Of a stretch of DNA of 64,000 bases, positions 7,629 through 62,935 are shown one piece after another. The translations under genes and the position numbers were made by a program. The stretch is from positions 4,586,501-4,650,500 of the forward strand of contig NZ_ATTE01000001.1 of NCBI RefSeq assembly GCF_000419525.1, written 5' to 3'. The stretch comes from Leucothrix mucor DSM 2157. GTDB taxonomy: Bacteria; Pseudomonadota; Gammaproteobacteria; Thiotrichales; Thiotrichaceae. The notes under the pieces were generated by a model, which ran no database searches, was not told the origin of the DNA, and saw only the letters and a program-made list of their open reading frames with translations. Positions within the stretch are counted from its first letter, which is position 1; every line of letters begins with the position of its first letter.

Positions 7629-9029
7629 TTAGATGGTTCTGGAGAAGCGGAGCACCTGATTGTCTTTGTCCTGCAGTTGAATGGCTAAGTAGCGATCAAA
7701 CGTCATGGCAATATTGCGTAAGAAATAACGTCCTGCATTGCTAATACTAAAGCGCTCCGCTTCCTGATGAATCAGGCCATCTTTTTCAAAATGAGAGAGC
7801 TTGTAGAGCTCATCATTAAAGTACTCAGCAAAGTCGATTCCAAACTCCGATTCAATCGGAGCATAGTCCACGGTTTGCTGGCACATAATCTGCTGAATCA
7901 CGCGTGCGCGAATCATGTCATCCTTGCTTAGGCTGACGCCGCGTTGGATGGGTAATTCACCCGCATCAAGGTGCGCATAATACTCAGGCAATGAGCTGGA
8001 ATTTTGGCTGTAAGCATTGCCCACTTTACTAATGGAGCTAACGCCAAGTCCGATTTGGTCACATTCGGAATGCGTGGCATAGCCTTGGAAATTGCGCTGC
8101 AGGCTGTGATTTTTCAGTGCGATTGACAGCGAGTCGCTGGGGCGCGCAAAGTGATCCATACCAATATGCACGTAGCCCGCATCGGTTAAAAACTCGATGG
8201 TGTCGCGGCTAATGGCTAAGCGCGTGTCACGGTCTGGCAGTGACTTAGGGTCAATCAGTTTTTGAGCGCGAATCCGGTTAGGCATAAAGGCAAAGCCGTA
8301 AATGGCAATGCGATCGGCGCCGGAGTCCACGACTTGTTGCAAGGTGTCACGGAAGCTTTCGCGGGTTTGGAAGGGTAGGCCTGCCACCAAATCTACTGAA
8401 ATGGATTCCACACCGCTGGAGCGCGCAGCATCAAAGACGGTATCGACTTGTTCACGGCTTTGTACACGGTTAATGGCATGCTGCACTTCGGTGGTGTAAT
8501 CCTGCACGCCAATGCTGATGCGGTTAAAGCCCAATGTCGCGAGCTCGTTAATATCGGTGTAGCTGGCAAAGCGCGGATCGATCTCAATACTGATTTCTAA
8601 GTCTTCCGGATAGCTTAAGTGGAAGTGGCGCGCGATCATGCTCAGCAATTCGCGGTGCTGTTCCGTGCTTAGGAAGTTCGGTGTGCCGCCGCCTAAATGA
8701 ATTTGAGTGACTAAGCGGTCGGAGGCAAATAAGCGGCTTTGCATTTCGATTTCACGAAATAGGTATTCGAGGTATAGCTCGGCCTTATCCGGATTTTGCG
8801 TCACAATTTTGTTGCAGCCGCAGTAGTAGCAAAGCGAGTGACAAAAAGGAATGTGAATATAGAGCGATAGTGGCCGCGGAATCAGCTCGTCATTGCTGTT
8901 GCTGGCATGGCGAATGTAGTCCTGCTGACCGAAATTACCCACAAACTCGGGCGCAGTCGGGTAGGAGGTATACCGTGGACCTTGCGTATCGTATTTTTCT
9001 AGCAGATCAAGATTAAAGTCCAGTGACAT
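7629..9029 (-). CDS. hemN: Oxygen-independent coproporphyrinogen III oxidase HemN
   Basis: A radical-SAM enzyme that decarboxylates coproporphyrinogen III to protoporphyrinogen IX without oxygen, in haem synthesis. The protein is 466 residues, the usual HemN length. The [4Fe-4S]/SAM motif CxxxCxxC is at C63, C67 and C70, followed by the extra Cys of the HemN signature (CGC). GGGTPNFL follows near residue 113, and a HemN C-terminal domain is present. It is a true HemN rather than the shorter HemW. A canonical FNR box lies 64 bases upstream, which fits induction when oxygen is low and fits the cbb3 oxidase and fnr genes elsewhere in the window. Confidence 0.96.
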   Translation of the reverse strand: MSLDFNLDLLEKYDTQGPRYTSYPTAPEFVGNFGQQDYIRHASNSNDELIPRPLSLYIHIPFCHSLCYYCGCNKIVTQNPDKAELYLEYLFREIEMQSRLFASDRLVTQIHLGGGTPNFLSTEQHRELLSMIARHFHLSYPEDLEISIEIDPRFASYTDINELATLGFNRISIGVQDYTTEVQHAINRVQSREQVDTVFDAARSSGVESISVDLVAGLPFQTRESFRDTLQQVVDSGADRIAIYGFAFMPNRIRAQKLIDPKSLPDRDTRLAISRDTIEFLTDAGYVHIGMDHFARPSDSLSIALKNHSLQRNFQGYATHSECDQIGLGVSSISKVGNAYSQNSSSLPEYYAHLDAGELPIQRGVSLSKDDMIRARVIQQIMCQQTVDYAPIESEFGIDFAEYFNDELYKLSHFEKDGLIHQEAERFSISNAGRYFLRNIAMTFDRYLAIQLQDKDNQVLRFSRTI

Positions 9030-9092: not shown

Positions 9093-9106
9093 TTGATGTA
9101 AATCAA
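9093..9106 (-). promoter_or_regulatory. FNR/ANR box upstream of hemN
   Basis: TTGATGTAAATCAA is a perfect FNR consensus (TTGAT-N4-ATCAA). Its centre is 70.5 bases before the hemN ATG. A TAGCAT hexamer on the minus strand at 9064-9069 sits where the -10 element of a class II (-41.5) FNR promoter should be. The box also lies between the divergent gene starting at 9206. Confidence 0.9.
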
Positions 9107-36224: not shown

Positions 36225-36710
36225 TTAGTCGTAAGACTGAAAATATTCTAAGTGACACGTATAGCCGCCCGGATTCTTCTCCAAATAATCCTGATGATAG
36301 TCTTCCGCATCGTAAAACACGTCAAAGGCTTCCAACGACGTTGCTACTGGTGCAGGCCATTTGCCTGACTCATCCACAAACTTAATCATGGCTGCTGCTT
36401 CGGCTTTCTCTTCTTCATTCTGATAGAAAATCGCTGAGCGATAAGATGTACCAATGTCATTACCCTGACGGTTACGCGTGGTCGGGTTATGAATGCGGAA
36501 GAAGTATTCCAGCAACTCGCGATAGCTCATGATCTCATCGTCGTATTCGATCAGCATCGCTTCGGCGTGGCCTTCATGGCTTTTATAAGTCGGGTTTGGG
36601 GCAACGCCACCGGTGTAGCCAACTTCAGTGTTAATAATGCCGTCTTGCTTTCGGATCAGGTCTTCCATTCCCCAAAAACAGCCGCCGGCCAAATAGGCTT
36701 TCTTAATCAT
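36225..36710 (-). CDS. msrA: Peptide-methionine (S)-S-oxide reductase MsrA
   Basis: A 161-residue enzyme that repairs oxidised methionine in proteins. The catalytic cysteine is C11 in GGCFWGMED, and the family segments [18 protein letters not shown] and FFRIHNPTT are present. The start at 36710 is supported by GGAG six bases upstream and by the family N-terminus; longer upstream in-frame extensions are poorly supported. MsrB is not fused or adjacent. Confidence 0.95.
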
Positions 36711-36815
36711 TTTACGCTCCGTGTTTGTCTGTGTGATTTCGCTAACAGTATCCATACCGCGAGCGGGATGCAATATTCAGGAGTGCGCTAATGATATTAA
36801 AAAATGTCTGGAAAC

Positions 36816-36862
36816 AAAAATTGCCGACCTCTAGCTAAAGGATAGTAGAGTGGTCGGCAATT
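36816..36862 (-). terminator. Rho-independent terminator after the YebC-family gene
   Basis: A perfect 11-bp stem (AATTGCCGACC 36819-36829, GGTCGGCAATT 36852-36862) with a 22-base loop. On the minus strand it ends in a T-run. It starts 30 bases past the stop codon of the 36893-37612 gene. Confidence 0.8.
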
Positions 36863-36892
36863 AGTGCGATTTATTCTGCTGTGCAGAAAAAC

Positions 36893-37612
36893 TTATAACT
36901 CAGCGTTGTGATAAACGTTCTGAACATCGTCCAGCTCGTTCAACATATCCATGAATTTTTCAAACATTGCGGTATCGTCTTCGCCACTGATCTGCGTCAT
37001 CACTTGTGGCAGGAACTGAATCTCATCCACTTCAAAATCAGCATCCGGCACCACACTTAAAATGGCTTGTCTGGTTTTACCGTACTGATCGTGCGGTGCA
37101 AACACAGAGATCATGCCATCTTCGTTTTCGATATCAGTGACATCAACATCCGCTTCCATCAGCGCATCTAGTACCGCTTCTTCGTCATCGCCGGCAAATT
37201 TGAAAATCGCCAGATGATCGAACATGTGAGTCACTGAGCCCTGAGTACCGATTTTGCAATTGGTCTTCGTGAAGCACAGGCGAACATCACCAAAGGTACG
37301 GTTCGGGTTATCCGTTAGCGTATCGATAATCGCCATGCAGTTGCCAGGGCCGTAGCCTTCGTAGCGAGCAGGGTAGTAATCTTCACCACCGCCGCCTTTG
37401 GCTTTCTCGATACCTTTTTCAATAACGTGAGTAGGAACCTGGTCCTTTTTTGCGCGCTCAATTAAGCTGCGAAGCGCAAGGTTACCCTCAGGGTCAACAC
37501 CTCCTGCTTTGGCGCAAACATAGATTTCGCGTCCGTACTTACTGTAAACCTTGGCCTTCATATTTGAAGTCTTGGCCATGGATTCTTTGCGGTTTTGGTA
37601 CGCTCTTCCCAT
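36893..37612 (-). CDS. YebC/PmpR-family protein (YeeN-like branch)
   Basis: A 239-residue cytoplasmic protein of the YebC/TACO1 family, members of which act as DNA-binding regulators or help ribosomes through proline stretches. Family signs are [15 protein letters not shown], the [25 protein letters not shown] segment and the acidic C-terminal [10 protein letters not shown]. The N-terminus [16 protein letters not shown] fits the YeeN-like branch rather than canonical YebC (MAGHSKWAN). It is a single gene with its own terminator. Confidence 0.92.
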
Positions 37613-54870: not shown

Positions 54871-54884
54871 TTGACTCAAATCAA
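54871..54884 (+). promoter_or_regulatory. FNR/ANR box before the cbb3 maturation genes
   Basis: TTGACTCAAATCAA matches the FNR consensus (TTGAY-N4-ATCAA). A TG-TAGACT extended -10 (TG at 54904-54905, hexamer 54907-54912) is spaced as in class II promoters. The centre is 72.5 bases before the ATG at 54950. Confidence 0.88.
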
Positions 54885-55135: not shown

Positions 55136-57592
55136 ATGCCTCTTGCTATCCCAGCCTCCGGCCATGCGCATTCTCATGACGAACTGAGCTGCTATCACTG
55201 TGGCTTGGATGTTCCTGCCCATACTAATTATCGCCTATCGATTAAAGGGATTGAGCAGCCTATGTGTTGTTTGGGGTGCTTGGCGGCAGCGGATTTTATC
55301 CAGCAAAATGGCATGGGCGATTTTTATCAGCACCGTGGGAATCAATTGCCGGAGTCGGCAGTTTCGGGTCAGTACGGCGACCGCAAAAGCTGGGAATATT
55401 ATGACCAGCCTGAAGTACGCCTCCAATATCAAAAAGAGCAAGATGGCGAAACCTGTGCACGCATTTATGTGCAAGGCATGTATTGCAGCAGTTGTGCCTG
55501 GTTAATTGATAGCTCCTTATCGCAGCTGCCGGGTGTGGAGCGTGTACAGCTAAACCCCGATACCCATCAAGTGCAGTTATTTTGGAAGCCGGAGCAAAGC
55601 CGGCTAAGCGATATTTTAAGCACCATCTCCAAACTTGGTTATCAGCCACGCCCGCTTAATGAAAGCGAAACCGGTGTAGATAAGCGTGAATTTGAAAACC
55701 GTCAATCCTTAAAGCGCCTTGCGGTGGCTGGCTTTGGGATGATGCAGGTGATGACTTACGCAATTGGCGTGTATCTGGGTGACTATCAGGGCATGGACGA
55801 GGGGATTCGTCAGTTTCTGAATTTGGTTAGCTTGTTGGTGGCGACTGTCGTTGTGTTTTATTCCGGTGCGCCATTTTTCAAACACGCTTGGTTTGATCTG
55901 AAAAATCGTCATTTAGGTATGGATGTGCCCGTGGCGCTGGCGATTGGTGGTGCTTACAGCGCAAGCCTCTGGCAGGTTCTGATCGACCATACGCTCGGTG
56001 CCGAAGTCTATTTTGATTCTGCGGTGATGTTTGTATTTTTCCTATCGCTGGGGCGATTTCTGGAAATGCGGGCGCGTTACAGTGCGGCTTCCAGTGCAGA
56101 TGCTTTACGGCAATTACTGCCACCATTAGTCACTGTTTGGCGTAATGGCGAAAGCTTGGTGATCAGCCCGCAGCAGTTAGAAAAGAGCGATGAAGTTGAT
56201 GTATTAGCAGGCGAAACCATTCCTTGTGATGGCCGCGTATTAAATGGCGAAGCGCAGTTGGATGAGTCTTTACTGACTGGCGAGGCGCGGGCAGTGGCTT
56301 GCGCAAAAGATAGCTTGGTTACTGGTGGTACCAAGCTGCAATCCGGCCGTTTAAGGTTGGTGGTGACGCAAGCTTGGGAGCAATCTGCGGTCGCATCCAT
56401 CAAGCAATTACTGGATCGGGCACAATCGCAGCGCCCACAACGAGTGCGCTTAGCCGATGCCATGGCGCGTTACTTTGTGGCTGGCTTATTGGTGCTGGCA
56501 TTTGCCGTGGGATTATTTTGGTATATCGTCGCGCCAGATCGGGTATTTGGCATTGTGTTATCCGTATTAATTGCCAGTTGCCCTTGTGCCTTTTCATTGG
56601 CAACGCCTGCTGTGCTAACCGTCGCCAGTCATTTTTTAAGCCGACATGGCGTACTGCTCAGTAATGCCGATGCTTGCGAATCGTTACTCAGTGTTAATCA
56701 CTGGTGTTTTGATAAAACCGGTACGCTCAGTACCGCAGAATTGGTGGTTGAACATGCTGAATTATTTGCTGACATGCCGGAAGCGGACTGCTTAGCGGTT
56801 ATCGGAGCCATTGAGCGACAAACCGATCATGTACTGGCGAGTGCCTTTTCAAGTAATAACACGCTGCAAGCCACCGATGTGCAAGTGGTACACGGCTCCG
56901 GTGTGTATGGCCAAGTTAGCGGAAAACAGTATTTTATTGGAAACCCTAGCTGGATTGAGGCGCAATGCAGCATTGCTAATATGCCATCACTGCAAGATCA
57001 ACACAGCGTTATACTGCTAGCTGAAGCAGGCAAACTTCTAGCCGCCGTCTATTTATCCGATAAAATCCGACGCGATGCCGCTCCAGTTTTGCAGTCTCTC
57101 AAGCAACAAGGCGATCAAATCAGCATATTAAGTGGCGACCGTCAGGGTGTAGTATCACGATTTGCGCAAAGTTTGCCGGTAGATAAAGCCTTGGGTGACT
57201 TGCTGCCTGCCGATAAAGTCGCCTATTTACGCGAGCTACAAGCTCAAGGCCAGCACGTTGCCATGATTGGCGATGGGGTCAATGATGCGCCGGTACTCGG
57301 TCAGGCGAATGTCAGTATTGCCATGGCGAGCGGCAGCCAGCTTAGCCAAAGTCAGGCAGATGTGATTTTGCTCGGTGGTCGTTTGCAGGGATTAGGCATT
57401 GCACAGCAGGTTGCCAAGCGTGCTCAATACATTATCCGGCAAAATCTGACTTGGGCCATATTGTATAATTTAACCGTATTACCGCTGGCAGCGACGGGCG
57501 TACTTGCACCGTGGATGGCGGCGATTGGTATGTCATTGAGTTCTTTGGCGGTGGTGGTTAATGCCCGCCGTTTGAATCGTTTAACCTTTTAA
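55136..57592 (+). CDS. ccoI: Copper-type P-type ATPase CcoI (FixI)
   Basis: An 818-residue heavy-metal ATPase that exports copper for cbb3 oxidase assembly. The N-terminal CcoI-type zinc-binding region is CYHCGLDVP...CCLGC, followed by an HMA domain with CSSC. The metal site is C482-P483-C484 in SCPCAFSLATP, the phosphorylated Asp is D526 in DKTGT, and TGEAR and GDGVNDAPVL are the other P-type motifs. About eight membrane helices are present. It lies between the small ccoH and ccoS in the usual order. Confidence 0.95.
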   Translation: MPLAIPASGHAHSHDELSCYHCGLDVPAHTNYRLSIKGIEQPMCCLGCLAAADFIQQNGMGDFYQHRGNQLPESAVSGQYGDRKSWEYYDQPEVRLQYQKEQDGETCARIYVQGMYCSSCAWLIDSSLSQLPGVERVQLNPDTHQVQLFWKPEQSRLSDILSTISKLGYQPRPLNESETGVDKREFENRQSLKRLAVAGFGMMQVMTYAIGVYLGDYQGMDEGIRQFLNLVSLLVATVVVFYSGAPFFKHAWFDLKNRHLGMDVPVALAIGGAYSASLWQVLIDHTLGAEVYFDSAVMFVFFLSLGRFLEMRARYSAASSADALRQLLPPLVTVWRNGESLVISPQQLEKSDEVDVLAGETIPCDGRVLNGEAQLDESLLTGEARAVACAKDSLVTGGTKLQSGRLRLVVTQAWEQSAVASIKQLLDRAQSQRPQRVRLADAMARYFVAGLLVLAFAVGLFWYIVAPDRVFGIVLSVLIASCPCAFSLATPAVLTVASHFLSRHGVLLSNADACESLLSVNHWCFDKTGTLSTAELVVEHAELFADMPEADCLAVIGAIERQTDHVLASAFSSNNTLQATDVQVVHGSGVYGQVSGKQYFIGNPSWIEAQCSIANMPSLQDQHSVILLAEAGKLLAAVYLSDKIRRDAAPVLQSLKQQGDQISILSGDRQGVVSRFAQSLPVDKALGDLLPADKVAYLRELQAQGQHVAMIGDGVNDAPVLGQANVSIAMASGSQLSQSQADVILLGGRLQGLGIAQQVAKRAQYIIRQNLTWAILYNLTVLPLAATGVLAPWMAAIGMSLSSLAVVVNARRLNRLTF

Positions 57593-57851: not shown

Positions 57852-58574
57852 ATGGGATTTGTATCAGCAATATTATTGGGTTTACTCGCGAGCCTGCACT
57901 GCGCAGGCATGTGCGGTGGGCTGCAAGCGGCGCTAAACCGTCCGCAAGCCCTGCGCAAACCCATCGAAAATCAACTGCATTTGCTGTCGATGAATTTGGG
58001 GCGAGTGGCTTTGTATACCATGGCTGGCGCGATCATTGGCTTTATCGGGGCCGAAGTGGGTACGGTACTCAACTTACCGGATTGGTCGACCTGGCTACGC
58101 CGCTTTGCCGCCATTATGATTATTGTGATTGGCTTCCAGCTACTGTTTCGTATCGAAAAACCGTTTAGTTTTCTGGAAAAGTTTGGCTATGCCTTTTGGC
58201 AGCGCATCAAGCCGTATCTGAATTTAGGCGCGCCCGTGACTTATGCGCAGTCGTTTCGCCAAGGCTTAGTGTGGGGATTCCTGCCCTGCGGACTGGTGTA
58301 TTCGGTATTGTCGGTCGCCAGCGTGAGTGGCTCGGCATGGGGTGGTGGACTAACAATGTTGGGTTTTGGTGTCGGAACCTTGCCAGCAATGTTGCTAACC
58401 GGTCAGGTGTTTTGGGCATTTAAAGGGTTTTTGCAGAAACGTGCAGTACAACAGAGTGGAGGCGTGTTCTTTATTCTGATTGGTACGTTGATTTTTCTAG
58501 CGCCGCAATTGGCGAGCCATGAAGCCATTCAACAGCATCCGCTGTTTTATAATCTGGCACGTTGTATTTTGTAA
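57852..58574 (+). CDS. TauE/SafE-like membrane protein of the cbb3 assembly cluster
   Basis: A 240-residue protein with about six membrane segments and the cysteine motif LHCAGMCGG near residues 17-25 that typifies the branch found with ccoI/ccoS and copper handling genes. Its role is probably in metal or redox support of oxidase assembly rather than sulfite export. It begins 3 bases after ccoS and closes the maturation operon. The TauE-type gene at 1594-2367 lacks this cysteine motif. Confidence 0.9.
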   Translation: MGFVSAILLGLLASLHCAGMCGGLQAALNRPQALRKPIENQLHLLSMNLGRVALYTMAGAIIGFIGAEVGTVLNLPDWSTWLRRFAAIMIIVIGFQLLFRIEKPFSFLEKFGYAFWQRIKPYLNLGAPVTYAQSFRQGLVWGFLPCGLVYSVLSVASVSGSAWGGGLTMLGFGVGTLPAMLLTGQVFWAFKGFLQKRAVQQSGGVFFILIGTLIFLAPQLASHEAIQQHPLFYNLARCIL

Positions 58575-58668
58575 GGCTTGTTTGACTGATTCCAAAAGGT
58601 TTGGCTAATCAGTATCGAGTCAATCCAGTGTTGGATGAATCAGGATATGGATCAATTAACTGTTGGGA

Positions 58669-58677
58669 GGGGGGGGG
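58669..58677 (+). repeat. Run of nine G
   Basis: A G9 tract lies in the 182-base intergenic space between the convergent TauE-like gene and the first DUF1127 gene. It is not inside a gene and so has no frame consequence. A second G9 tract occurs in the broken gene at 44845-44853. Confidence 0.6.
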
Positions 58678-58756
58678 TAAAACTAACCTCCGCCAGCAGA
58701 CCGGCAAGCCATTTCTAGCTTGCCAATCTAGCAGACGGGGATATTAGCCAGCATGA

Positions 58757-59101
58757 TTAAGCTGCCTGTGTGCTATCAATTCCTGCACGACCTTTAGTAA
58801 CGGCATCACGGATTTGACCGCGAGAAATACCTAAATCAGCCAGCTCAGTATCGTTGTAAGCAGTCAATTCTTTGATAGCGGCTTCGATTGCTGAAGCGTC
58901 TTGAGCTTTGCTGGTTGGGCTGCGGAATTCTTCAGTTCTCCAAGGCCATCCTTCAACGCCTTGACTTAATAGAGCGCGAGAGAAACCCAGATCATCCAAT
59001 GTGCGATCGCTAAGAGTGTTTAAGTAATTCAATGTCTTATGACGACCGTAAGATTCGATAGCTGAAGACAAAGTGTTTTTTAGATTTTTAAAGTATGACA
59101 T
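58757..59101 (-). CDS. Double DUF1127-like protein A
   Basis: A 114-residue basic protein with two DUF1127-like motifs, LSDRTLDDLGFSRALL (about 29-44) and YNDTELADLGISRGQI (about 80-95). Normal DUF1127 proteins have one; members with an Arg-rich helix are RNA-binding or regulatory in other bacteria. The start at 59101 (MSYFKNLKN) is chosen for agreement with its paralogue. The paralogue is at 60183-60527, and the promoter, leader and 3' flank are also conserved. The fnr gene lies between them. Confidence 0.85.
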   Translation of the reverse strand: MSYFKNLKNTLSSAIESYGRHKTLNYLNTLSDRTLDDLGFSRALLSQGVEGWPWRTEEFRSPTSKAQDASAIEAAIKELTAYNDTELADLGISRGQIRDAVTKGRAGIDSTQAA

Positions 59102-59135
59102 TTTATATGTTCCATGTGTGTTGTTCATGGAGCGC

Positions 59136-59163
59136 ATAATAGTCTTTTTGCTGCGACGCACAA
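59136..59163 (-). promoter_or_regulatory. Sigma-70-type promoter of DUF1127 gene A
   Basis: On the minus strand TTGTGC, a 16-base spacer and TATTAT are found (-10 at 59136-59141, -35 at 59158-59163). The same two hexamers and spacing recur before the paralogue, and the surrounding bases (GCGACGCACAAGAGACAAG) are nearly identical. Confidence 0.7.
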
Positions 59164-59322
59164 GAGACAAGAATTTGATGTTCGGGTTACTAAATTTATC
59201 CAGAAAATATGAACCAAATTCAGCTTAGGTTGTATTGGCGCTAAAACTGTGGCGTGGCGGAGGGAGAGCTCTGAAAGGAGGGCGACAAGCGGTCATAGAG
59301 TAATCGCTTGTCTGCTAAATAC

Positions 59323-60069
59323 TTAGCCTTTGTGCAGTTTTGAGGTGTCGATATTTTGTGTTTGTACTTCGCAACCGGTGAGTATTAGCAGTTGCTCAGG
59401 GTTCAAAATCTTCACTTCGCGGTGATTAATCTTAAGCACACCTTTGTCCTGAAAGCGCTTTAATAAGCGGCTCACGGTTTCAGCGGCCATACCTAAGTGA
59501 TTAGCAATATCTTGTCGGGTCATTGCCAAAATCAATTCACTGCCAGAATAGCCACGTGTTTCGTAGCGAATTGCAAGGTTGCGAATAAAGGAGGCGAGCT
59601 TTTGCTCAGCACTTAACTCCGACAATAAGGCGTTGGAGTTATTAATCTCTTTACTAATTAGGCGGATAAGCTGTTTTTGCAATGCAGGAATGTGCGCCGA
59701 TAGGTCAGTCAGTTGGTCATAATCCAGTTGGCATAGCGCTGAGGTGGTCAGGGCTGTCGTGCTACTGGTGTATTCCATGGGATAAATCGCATCCAAGCCG
59801 ATCAACTCACCGGGCAGGTGAAAGCCTGTGATAGTCTCGTGACCATCAGCATTGAGCTTAGTGGATTTATACATGCCGGATTTTACGGCGAAGATTTTGG
59901 TGAATGGTGTGCCTTGTTGAATGACAACATCACCATCGTGTTGAATGTGTGAGCCTTGAACCAATTTCTCTAAACGATCCAAGTCATTTTTATCTATCCC
60001 AAGCGGCAGACAAATATCGCTCAGTGAGCAATGGCTGCAGGAATGAGCTTCATGTTTAGGGTTGGCCAT
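59323..60069 (-). CDS. fnr: FNR/ANR-type oxygen-sensing regulator
   Basis: A 248-residue Crp/Fnr regulator. The four [4Fe-4S] cluster cysteines are present: C11, C14 and C20 (CSHCSLSDIC) and C113 (in SALCQLDYD). The recognition helix reads AAETVSRLLKRFQ, with the E-T-V-S-R pattern that reads TTGAT. It should dimerise without oxygen and bind TTGAT-N4-ATCAA. It is flanked on both sides by the duplicated DUF1127 genes. No FNR box was seen at its own start. It is the natural regulator of the five boxes in this window. Confidence 0.96.
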   Translation of the reverse strand: MANPKHEAHSCSHCSLSDICLPLGIDKNDLDRLEKLVQGSHIQHDGDVVIQQGTPFTKIFAVKSGMYKSTKLNADGHETITGFHLPGELIGLDAIYPMEYTSSTTALTTSALCQLDYDQLTDLSAHIPALQKQLIRLISKEINNSNALLSELSAEQKLASFIRNLAIRYETRGYSGSELILAMTRQDIANHLGMAAETVSRLLKRFQDKGVLKINHREVKILNPEQLLILTGCEVQTQNIDTSKLHKG

Positions 60070-60182
60070 ATCTTAATGATACTAGTTACGTGTGATGGCC
60101 TTTAGACTAAACCTCCGCCAATAGGCTGGCAAGCTAATTTAAAACTTACCAGACTAGTTGGCGAGGTTGTTAGTCAGCATTA

Positions 60183-60527
60183 TTAAGCTGCCTTTGAGTT
60201 TTCAATTCCTACGCGACCGTTCAGTACGGCTTCACGGATTTGACCGCGAGAGATCCCTAAATCAGCCAGCTCAGCATCGTTATAAGCTGTTAGCTCTTCG
60301 ATAGCTGCAGTGATTGAAGTGCTGTCTTGGTTACGGTTTGCAGCGTTGCGAACTTCATCTGTTCTCCAAGGCCATGCATCGACACCTTGGCTTAGCAAAG
60401 CGCGTGAGAAACCCAGGTCGTCTAGTGTACGATCGCCAAGATTGTTCAAGTAACTCAAAGTCTTATAACGACCATAAGATTCGATAGTTGAAGACAGTGA
60501 GTTCTTTAGATTTTTTAGAAATGACAT
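60183..60527 (-). CDS. Double DUF1127-like protein B
   Basis: A 114-residue paralogue of protein A (clearly alignable over the whole length). It has the motifs LGDRTLDDLGFSRALL and YNDAELADLGISRGQI. The start at 60527 begins MSFLKNLKN. Its promoter (60562-60589) and its 3' flank, which includes AACCTCCGCCA, repeat those of A. The pair and fnr in the middle indicate a segmental duplication around fnr, or an insertion of fnr between two tandem copies. Confidence 0.85.
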   Translation of the reverse strand: MSFLKNLKNSLSSTIESYGRYKTLSYLNNLGDRTLDDLGFSRALLSQGVDAWPWRTDEVRNAANRNQDSTSITAAIEELTAYNDAELADLGISRGQIREAVLNGRVGIENSKAA

Positions 60528-60561
60528 TTTATGTGCTCCATGTGTGTTGTTCATGGTTACA

Positions 60562-60589
60562 ATAATAGTCATTTTGTTGCGACGCACAA
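60562..60589 (-). promoter_or_regulatory. Sigma-70-type promoter of DUF1127 gene B
   Basis: On the minus strand TTGTGC, 16 bases and TATTAT (-10 at 60562-60567, -35 at 60584-60589), the same as before gene A. Confidence 0.7.
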
Positions 60590-60621
60590 GAGACAAGATT
60601 TTGGCTTCGGGTTTATTAAAA

Positions 60622-61497
60622 CTAACCTTTATCGAGTCGGGCCTTAATTTTCGCCAGATCCGCCGCTGATGCGTGCCCCTGTTCGCGGGCTAACGGTATT
60701 GATAGATCGCCAAGTAGCCGATATAGATTTCCATAGTCTTTATTCCATGCACTGATAGTGTCTAGTTGATTATTAACCACTTCGTGATCGCCGCGGGCAA
60801 TTGGGCCGGTGAGTGCTTCACTAGTACCCAAGCGAAACACGTTTTCAACGGTGCCTGAAACAATGGGTTTTAAGACAGCCATGGCTTGTTCGCGTTCAAT
60901 GCCGGCTTCTGCAAAGGTTTGAATGCTGAGCTCTTGCAGCGCCACCAAATAGTTACAGGCGATAACACTGGCCGCGTGATAAAGCGTTTTATGCTCTGCA
61001 TGAATTGGTAACAGGTGAGCACCCAACTGACTAAATAGAGGACCCGCTAAAGACAAAGCTGCTGCATCGCCTTCAACGCCACAATAAGTACCAGCAAAGC
61101 TATCGGCAGCCAGCTGTGGATTGGCAAAGCTCTTAATTGGGTGGATGCTGGCAATGTACGCGCCTTTCTCCCGACAATTGGCAAGCAGGGCAGATGACTG
61201 CGCTCCACTGCAATGAAACACTACATCGCCATCGCGCAGCACGCCGCTATCGGCCAGCATCTGACTGCAGTCAGCAATCGCATCATCGCCACAGGCTACA
61301 ATTGTTAGCTCAGCGGCTTGCATCTGTGCAATATCATCAATGGCGCGGCCTGCGCCAATGGCGGCTACCGCCGACTCAGCGCTGTCTAGCGAGCGGTTCA
61401 GGATATCGCCAATGACAACGGTGTGCTCCCGCTGCCATAACAAGCCCAGTGTGCGGCCAAGCTGCCCGCAGCCGATAAAGTTAATGCGATATGCCAT
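60622..61497 (-). CDS. DUF2520/Rossmann-fold oxidoreductase-like protein
   Basis: A 291-residue protein with an N-terminal Rossmann domain (NFIGCGQLGRTLGLL) and a C-terminal helical DUF2520 domain (about 150-285). The latter contains LPIHAEHKTLYHAASVIACNYLVAL, typical of ketopantoate- or pyrroline-reductase-like relatives. It probably uses NAD(P), but its reaction is unknown. It is a single gene between DUF1127 gene B and a terminator-closed membrane-protein gene. Confidence 0.88.
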   Translation of the reverse strand: MAYRINFIGCGQLGRTLGLLWQREHTVVIGDILNRSLDSAESAVAAIGAGRAIDDIAQMQAAELTIVACGDDAIADCSQMLADSGVLRDGDVVFHCSGAQSSALLANCREKGAYIASIHPIKSFANPQLAADSFAGTYCGVEGDAAALSLAGPLFSQLGAHLLPIHAEHKTLYHAASVIACNYLVALQELSIQTFAEAGIEREQAMAVLKPIVSGTVENVFRLGTSEALTGPIARGDHEVVNNQLDTISAWNKDYGNLYRLLGDLSIPLAREQGHASAADLAKIKARLDKG

Positions 61498-62860: not shown

Positions 62861-62921
62861 CTCTTCGTCCTCCATTAGGTTTGTCATAGGTTTAGTGTAT
62901 TAGTAAGTGCTAATATTTAAA

Positions 62922-62935
62922 TTGATATTTCTCAA
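62922..62935 (-). promoter_or_regulatory. Imperfect FNR box before the unknown membrane protein
   Basis: TTGATATTTCTCAA matches TTGAT-N4-ATCAA with one mismatch. Its centre is 68.5 bases before the chosen ATG. TACACT on the minus strand at 62894-62899 is in the -10 place of a class II promoter. Spacing agrees with the other four sites. Confidence 0.65.

Follow-up and report, generated by a model that had tools for sequence, protein, structure and literature searches.

The window, that is the whole stretch of 64,000 nucleotides that was analysed, comes from a filamentous marine bacterium and contains two copies of a gene encoding a protein with two DUF1127 domains, here called dufA and dufB, placed on either side of fnr. 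The minus strand reads DUF2520/ProC-like gene, dufB, fnr and dufA, and on the plus strand a DsbD_2 (TSUP-like) gene and two genes which we take to be ccoS and ccoI are convergent with dufA. The features of the locus are the following.

60622..61497, minus strand: DUF2520/Rossmann (ProC-like) gene, conserved neighbour of the DUF1127 gene
60106..60620, minus strand: duplicated block B (promoter, gene and terminator), its start 2 nt away from where the DUF2520 gene ends (60622)
60574..60589, minus strand: shortened PhaR-type dyad TTGTGC-N3-GCAACAA, covering the dufB -35, 47-62 nt before the ATG
60562..60567, minus strand: dufB -10 TATTAT, 16 nt after TTGTGC, from sequence inspection; the 16-nt spacing is kept in the genus
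60183..60527, minus strand: dufB, DUF1127 gene with two domains, coding for 114 aa, at the ancestral site adjoining the DUF2520/ProC-like gene
60105..60175, minus strand: long terminator-like hairpin 3' of dufB (-36.8 kcal/mol, z -6.9)
59323..60069, minus strand: fnr, 248 aa, CRP/FNR family, with an N-terminal cysteine cluster
58682..59194, minus strand: duplicated block A (promoter, gene and terminator)
59148..59163, minus strand: shortened PhaR-type dyad TTGTGC-N3-GCAGCAA, covering the dufA -35, 47-62 nt before the ATG
59136..59141, minus strand: dufA -10 TATTAT, 16 nt after TTGTGC, from sequence inspection
58757..59101, minus strand: dufA, the other copy, also 114 aa, flanked by fnr and the DsbD_2/TSUP-like gene
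58690..58738, minus strand: terminator-like hairpin 3' of dufA (-34.2 kcal/mol, z -4.6)
57852..58574, plus strand: DsbD_2 (TSUP-like) membrane protein, end gene of the ccoI-ccoS run

Both dufA and dufB are monocistronic cassettes of about 515 bp, each with its own promoter, gene and terminator. Both genes encode 114 aa from an ATG, and the outer limit of 60596 given in the original prediction is an upstream TTG inside the -35 region. The product of fnr scores 221.5 bits against the NCBIfam Fnr subfamily, slightly below the cut-off of 228. A consensus promoter scan did not list the TTGTGC-16-TATTAT of dufA and dufB and returned two other sites against 3.2 expected, which is the chance level. 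A plasmid search gave no match, and the window is chromosomal DNA of a Leucothrix member. Two candidate leader elements were discarded. A hairpin CCATG...CATGG has a z of -2.1 in dufA and -0.5 in dufB and is missing in L. pacifica. An upstream peptide 'MSLVR' can be read in every genus member, in frame with the gene in the dufA, dufB and L. pacifica promoters, but it sits in the -35 region without a ribosome site and was rejected as coding; attenuation of a DUF1127 gene by an upstream ORF is described for S. meliloti (PMC12218461). A run of about 9-10 G (58667-58676) lies between the dufA terminator and the DsbD_2 gene, in no gene, and could be a tract of slippage or phase variation.

The two proteins align without gaps over their full length with 72% identity and are encoded in the same orientation, and each matches the DUF1127 model (Pfam PF06568; 49.3 and 42.6 bits) in two stretches, as had been predicted. 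The similarity that had been noticed between promoters, leaders and 3' flanks was borne out by local alignment against 300 shuffles per side, with a score of 110 upstream (shuffle maximum 27) and 46 downstream (33). In the 79 nt before the ATG 66 positions are identical between the copies, compared with 74 of 114 third codon positions. The genes differ at 77 of 342 nt (dN 0.16, dS 0.76), and both copies are under purifying selection. From the L. pacifica gene dufA and dufB differ at 140 and 141 of 342 nt, so that the copies are nearer to each other than to L. pacifica and the duplication postdates the split from that species.

The homology between the copies spans 58682-59194 and 60106-60620 and ends there, short of both fnr and the DUF2520 gene. 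The stretch past the dufA terminator is not fnr-like (118 of 300 shuffles were equally good), nor is the stretch between fnr and the dufA promoter DUF2520-like (251 of 300). The idea of a duplication that enclosed fnr therefore holds for the duplication, found in the window's genome alone among the seven genus genomes searched, and is not borne out for the enclosure, since the homology stops before fnr and no remnant of a second fnr was found. A duf-fnr tandem followed by the clean loss of one fnr may nevertheless have occurred. The duplication is real and lineage-specific, and the placement around fnr is no evidence for an oxygen function.

The ancestral place of the cassette was found by comparing gene order in the seven genus genomes, the relatives including L. 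pacifica, L. arctica and MAGs of uncultured Leucothrix/Thiotrichaceae. The double protein is present in six of the seven, with two copies in the window's genome and one in each of five others, three of these single-copy genomes being incomplete (56-69%). A DUF2520 gene adjoins the DUF1127 gene in all six genomes having the protein (G000, G001, G003, G004, G005 and G006), which puts dufB in the old place and makes dufA the newer copy. The dufB leader is also more like the L. pacifica leader than the dufA leader is, and in L. pacifica the place of dufA, the interval between fnr and the TSUP-like gene, is empty of a copy. The neighbour on the other side varies, being fnr in L. pacifica, a TSUP gene in L. 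arctica and yebC-msrA in three MAGs. Only in two of the six genomes, the window's and that of L. pacifica, does fnr adjoin the DUF1127 gene; it is at another place in G001, G004 and G006 and was not found in G002 and G005. A single copy is thus ancestral elsewhere in the genus, an outcome that the original prediction itself had named as speaking against it. There are also signs of regional rearrangement, as yebC and msrA (36228-37612) are 23 kb off here but are found near the DUF1127 gene in L. arctica and in three Leucothrix MAGs. In sister genera, single-domain DUF1127 genes were seen as tandem pairs (L034 and L013/L020; G070:C78 and G022:C12), local duplication being recurrent in the family.

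It had been suggested that the DUF1127 products may have a role in RNA control related to oxygen; Fnr might then act with them. The adjacency to fnr in the two genomes speaks for this, and so do the ties reported between PhaR and FixK2, a regulator of the FNR type, in microoxic Bradyrhizobium (PMC10888616) and between the DUF1127 protein CcaF1 and RNA in microaerobic growth (PMC10253847). Nevertheless, no FNR site (TTGATNNNNATCAA, TTGAT-N4-ATCAA, 0 or 1 mismatch) exists between the matches at 54871-54884 and 62922. The nearest sites with two mismatches are within genes or after dufA. With fnr elsewhere in three relatives, its neighbourhood common to only two of the six genomes having the gene, no second fnr left behind and proteins that are not arginine-rich, a duplication that carried fnr along and served oxygen-related RNA control is very improbable. 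As part of the explanation that we favour, fnr is rather a neighbour that probably goes with the genes for cbb3 assembly and exerts no control over dufA and dufB. An indirect effect of oxygen is possible because some bacteria have a physiological link between PHB and low oxygen (PMC10888616).

The window as a whole contains 59 FNR-type matches with up to two mismatches against 37 expected, a number reached by none of 100 shuffles. A perfect site, TTGATGTAAATCAA (9093-9106), lies directly upstream of hemN (7629-9029, minus strand), which encodes the oxygen-independent coproporphyrinogen oxidase. Sites with one mismatch lie before ccoI (54871-54884, the gene at 55136) and before a gene with its upstream side at 62887 (62922-62935), and these two are likely to be real Fnr targets near fnr.

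The DUF1127 family has nearly 25 000 members, with a mean arginine content of 14%, and its hallmark is an arginine-rich, positively charged sequence (PMC12501420). Its role is disputed between RNA binding and protein binding. When the four domains of DufA and DufB were scored singly, three were above the curated PF06568 cut-off of 23.3 bits and the N half of dufB reached 21.1. Single-domain DUF1127 genes of the sister genera are of two kinds, with the motifs SRELL..G..YPWR and AIREL.AMNDREL..LGL.R..IE.AV..GR. In a domain tree (n=34), which covers 40 columns only and leaves most inner forks open, the Leucothrix N halves group with the SRELL kind and the C halves with the AIREL kind, a split found in 99 of 100. 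As the two halves belong to separate subfamilies, the double protein arose by fusion and not by recent internal duplication. A search at class level gave matches at E 1e-12 or better in seven of 369 genomes; outside the genus the two-domain layout was seen in L121 (125 aa) and in L123, which is cut by the contig end, and L122, which likewise sits at the end of a contig, matches over positions 30-107. DufA and DufB differ from the DUF1127/YjiS family in joining two different subfamilies in 114 aa and in not being arginine-rich, although both halves match the family model.

DufA and DufB lack the hallmark composition, arginine amounting to 8-9 of 114 residues (7-8%), with net charges of -1 and -2 and pI values of 5.79 and 5.09. 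Five of the six distinct genus proteins are acidic or neutral (pI 4.4-6.3) and one is basic (pI 9.39). The same genome has a separate, arginine-rich YjiS-like single-domain gene (C1:3402047, 8 Arg in 49 aa). Residues 1-30 are predicted to be an amphipathic helix, its moment being reached by only 5 and 3 of 1000 shuffles, which resembles the amphipathic N-terminal helix of Salmonella YjiS, a protein associated with the inner membrane (PMC11707872). The structure model is poor (pLDDT 58.9).

An RNA-binding protein of the CcaF1 kind, processing sRNAs or altering mRNA stability, is an unlikely product of these genes. CcaF1 of Rhodobacter sphaeroides is indeed an RNA-binding DUF1127 protein (PMC10253847, PMC12501420), but it is 71 aa long and shares its operon with four sRNAs (PMC12501420), whereas 58500-60700 gave no match to Rfam with an E of 1 or better. 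Moreover, it is the arginine-rich form of DUF1127 that is tied to RNA binding (PMC11707872, PMC12501420), and YjiS, another member from the gammaproteobacteria, is reported to show no association with RNA (PMC11707872). The suggested role in RNA control is weakened by the low arginine content and the pI of 5.1-5.8. The partners described for DUF1127 proteins are sensor kinases, namely PhoR for the A. tumefaciens and E. coli proteins and SsrA for Salmonella YjiS (PMC12501420).

The control signals before the two copies point to carbon-polymer storage and not to oxygen, as far as their sequence can be read. The genome encodes PhaR (equivalog model, 121.9 bits; cut-off 109.45), and phaR adjoins a PHA-synthase gene that scores 339.5 bits against the class III PhaC model, below the cut-off of 365.3. 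There are four phasin matches; sites of the TTGYTGCNNNGCANCA type precede three of them and the fourth directly follows another phasin. Sites with up to one mismatch number 154 genome-wide against 28 for the reversed pattern, a count in which one dyad may score on both strands. For PhaR, TG[N]TGC[N]3GCAA and CTGC[N]3GCAG have been published as boxes (PMC3206438), and as in the PhaR (AniA/PhbF) regulon of phasins and pha genes, a TGC-N3-GCA dyad lies over or near the dufA and dufB promoters; by its sequence the dyad of the DUF1127 genes is a putative PhaR dyad. At dufA and dufB its left arm is one base shorter than in the phasin promoters. The ungapped box accordingly has three mismatches at both promoters and is not striking (9/200 and 4/200 shuffles were as good), but the fit becomes perfect once one left-arm base is dropped (TTGTGC-N3-GCARCAA).

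This shortened form, TTGTGCNNNGCARCAA, occurs three times in 5.19 Mb, with none for the reversed control: before dufA, before dufB and 65-80 nt before phaB, the only pha gene of the genome found to share it. The phaB product is an acetoacetyl-CoA reductase (TIGR01829, 375.9 bits; cut-off 302.1), the next gene encodes an acetyl-CoA acyltransferase and phaR is about 4 kb away. As dufA had already been inspected when the shortened form was defined, the shuffle counts for dufA and dufB (0/1000) are an unfair test and only the matches at phaB and at L022 are independent. Among 30 scanned loci of relatives it is exact in two, L022 from a sister genus and L124 from another family, both 5' of DUF1127 genes. 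The L. pacifica promoter has it with one mismatch, and no box was found before the DUF1127 gene of L. arctica, in which phaR is present, or of three MAGs, which counts against PhaR control. The overlap of the dyad with the -35 at both promoters also counts against it. From the imperfect dyad in L. pacifica and its absence in L. arctica and the MAGs, PhaR control is likely here and weaker or lost elsewhere. A further string, WTGTCKCTTGTSNG, was rejected as a regulon marker, as it occurs at three genome places, two of them the dufA and dufB promoters, against one for the reversed control. In the literature searched, including PMC9230146, no paper ties DUF1127 to PhaR or PHB control, and DUF1127 is not named in the PhaR papers within the text that was searched.

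The upstream block can also be read as a sigma-70 promoter alone (TTGTGC-16-TATTAT), with the dyad there by chance and the genes outside the PhaR regulon. This would explain why every genus member retains the -35, the 16-nt spacing and the -10, with or without the dyad, and it agrees with the modest fit of the ungapped box. It seems rather unlikely, given that the GCARCAA arm sits in the spacer, where it is superfluous for a promoter, and that the exact dyad string is found elsewhere in the genome only before phaB.

The dyad was also looked for in the sister genera, where 10 of 21 scored single-domain DUF1127 genes carry TTGYTGCNNNGCARCAA with at most one mismatch and no more than 200 nt from the start, a result obtained in 0 of 200 shuffles for each. 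The count left out L042, duplicate loci of the same places and this genome's own YjiS-like gene, and it rose from 9 to 10 of 21 (L016) when the starts of 8 loci were re-set by eye. All ten genes sit in seven genomes, each with phaR, and in eight of them (L009, L010, L011, L015, L018, L021, L034 and L049) the dyad is followed by a TANNNT at a distance of about 6 nt. Among the counter-cases, eight of the 21 have at least three mismatches despite phaR in the genome (L008, L012, L013, L017, L019, L020, L023 and L044), L014 and L022 have two mismatches to TTGYTGCNNNGCARCAA, and L041 belongs to a genome without a phaR match.

The main rival to PhaR control is a LysR-type regulator (VtlR/GcvA-like) that would activate the DUF1127 genes through the dyad, as VtlR does in Brucella and Agrobacterium. 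VtlR is a LysR protein regulating DUF1127 genes in Rhizobiales (PMC12595884, PMC7486931), so that the VtlR/LsrB system likewise has DUF1127 under one transcription factor, and LysR neighbours exist in other gammaproteobacterial families. Indeed, the DUF1127 gene adjoins a LysR gene in four of the five class-level loci outside the family (L121, L123, L124 and L125; called by Pfam for L124, by the GcvA family for L123 and L125 and by eye for L121), and in L124 an exact shortened dyad lies between the two genes. With these neighbours and the L124 dyad, a LysR protein could read the dyad in some lineages. However, the published VtlR box GCAT-N3-TG-N3-T (PMC7486931) is unlike the dyad, a LysR neighbour was not seen at the Leucothrix DUF1127 genes, and the phasin and phaB promoters of this genome carry the same dyad. 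Moreover, no box with up to two mismatches was found between the DUF1127 and LysR genes of L121, L123 and L125. For dufA and dufB, control by a LysR-type protein is accordingly doubtful.

We propose, on the grounds of promoter sequence, that dufA and dufB belong to the PhaR carbon-storage regulon. The reading that we prefer, with a probability of about 0.55, is a cassette encoding a fusion of two subfamilies, copied across fnr, repressed by PhaR and encoding a small surface-binding adaptor, this last biochemical role being one that we infer. The cassette had its old place beside the DUF2520/ProC-like gene and was copied in this Leucothrix lineage to the other side of fnr. The locus anatomy, this copying, the ancestral place, the fusion, the phaR gene and the shared sites are observed, and PhaR binding, timing, location and partner are proposed. 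PhaR, a PHB-sensing regulator, would most likely repress both copies via the dyad over the -35 region, and PHB granules would titrate it off the DNA and open the dufA and dufB promoters. DufA and DufB would then accumulate, the N-terminal helix may attach to the surface of the granule or of the inner membrane, much as YjiS attaches to the membrane, and the DUF1127 domains may bind a partner protein, for which sensor kinases are the best-founded class (PMC12501420). Two copies would give a higher dose.

The existence of the fused form suggests that the two subfamilies act together. More tentatively, the DUF1127 proteins of the Leucothrix/Thiothrix family might form a PHB-storage module run by PhaR, in which two subfamilies cooperate on the granule surface as phasin-like adaptors that connect carbon storage with sensor kinases, encoded by separate genes in sister genera and by one fused and duplicated protein here. 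If it is true that many DUF1127 genes of this bacterial family belong to the PHB regulon, carbon storage would be the setting in which to search for partners. The carbon-storage signature and the fusion of two subfamilies are more interesting than the placement around fnr.

Some neighbours of the DUF1127 genes in sister genera are also of note. In L011 (2384-3127) and L015 (1825-3075), glgC, a gene of glycogen synthesis, is preceded by a C-type DUF1127 gene with a PhaR-type dyad, which is a second link to a storage polymer; glgC was called by NCBIfam for L015 and by eye for L011. In L016 and L021 C-type genes with perfect dyads have a yebC-family gene next to them, an arrangement also seen for the Leucothrix gene in three MAGs, but by eye this is a different YebC paralogue from the Leucothrix one.
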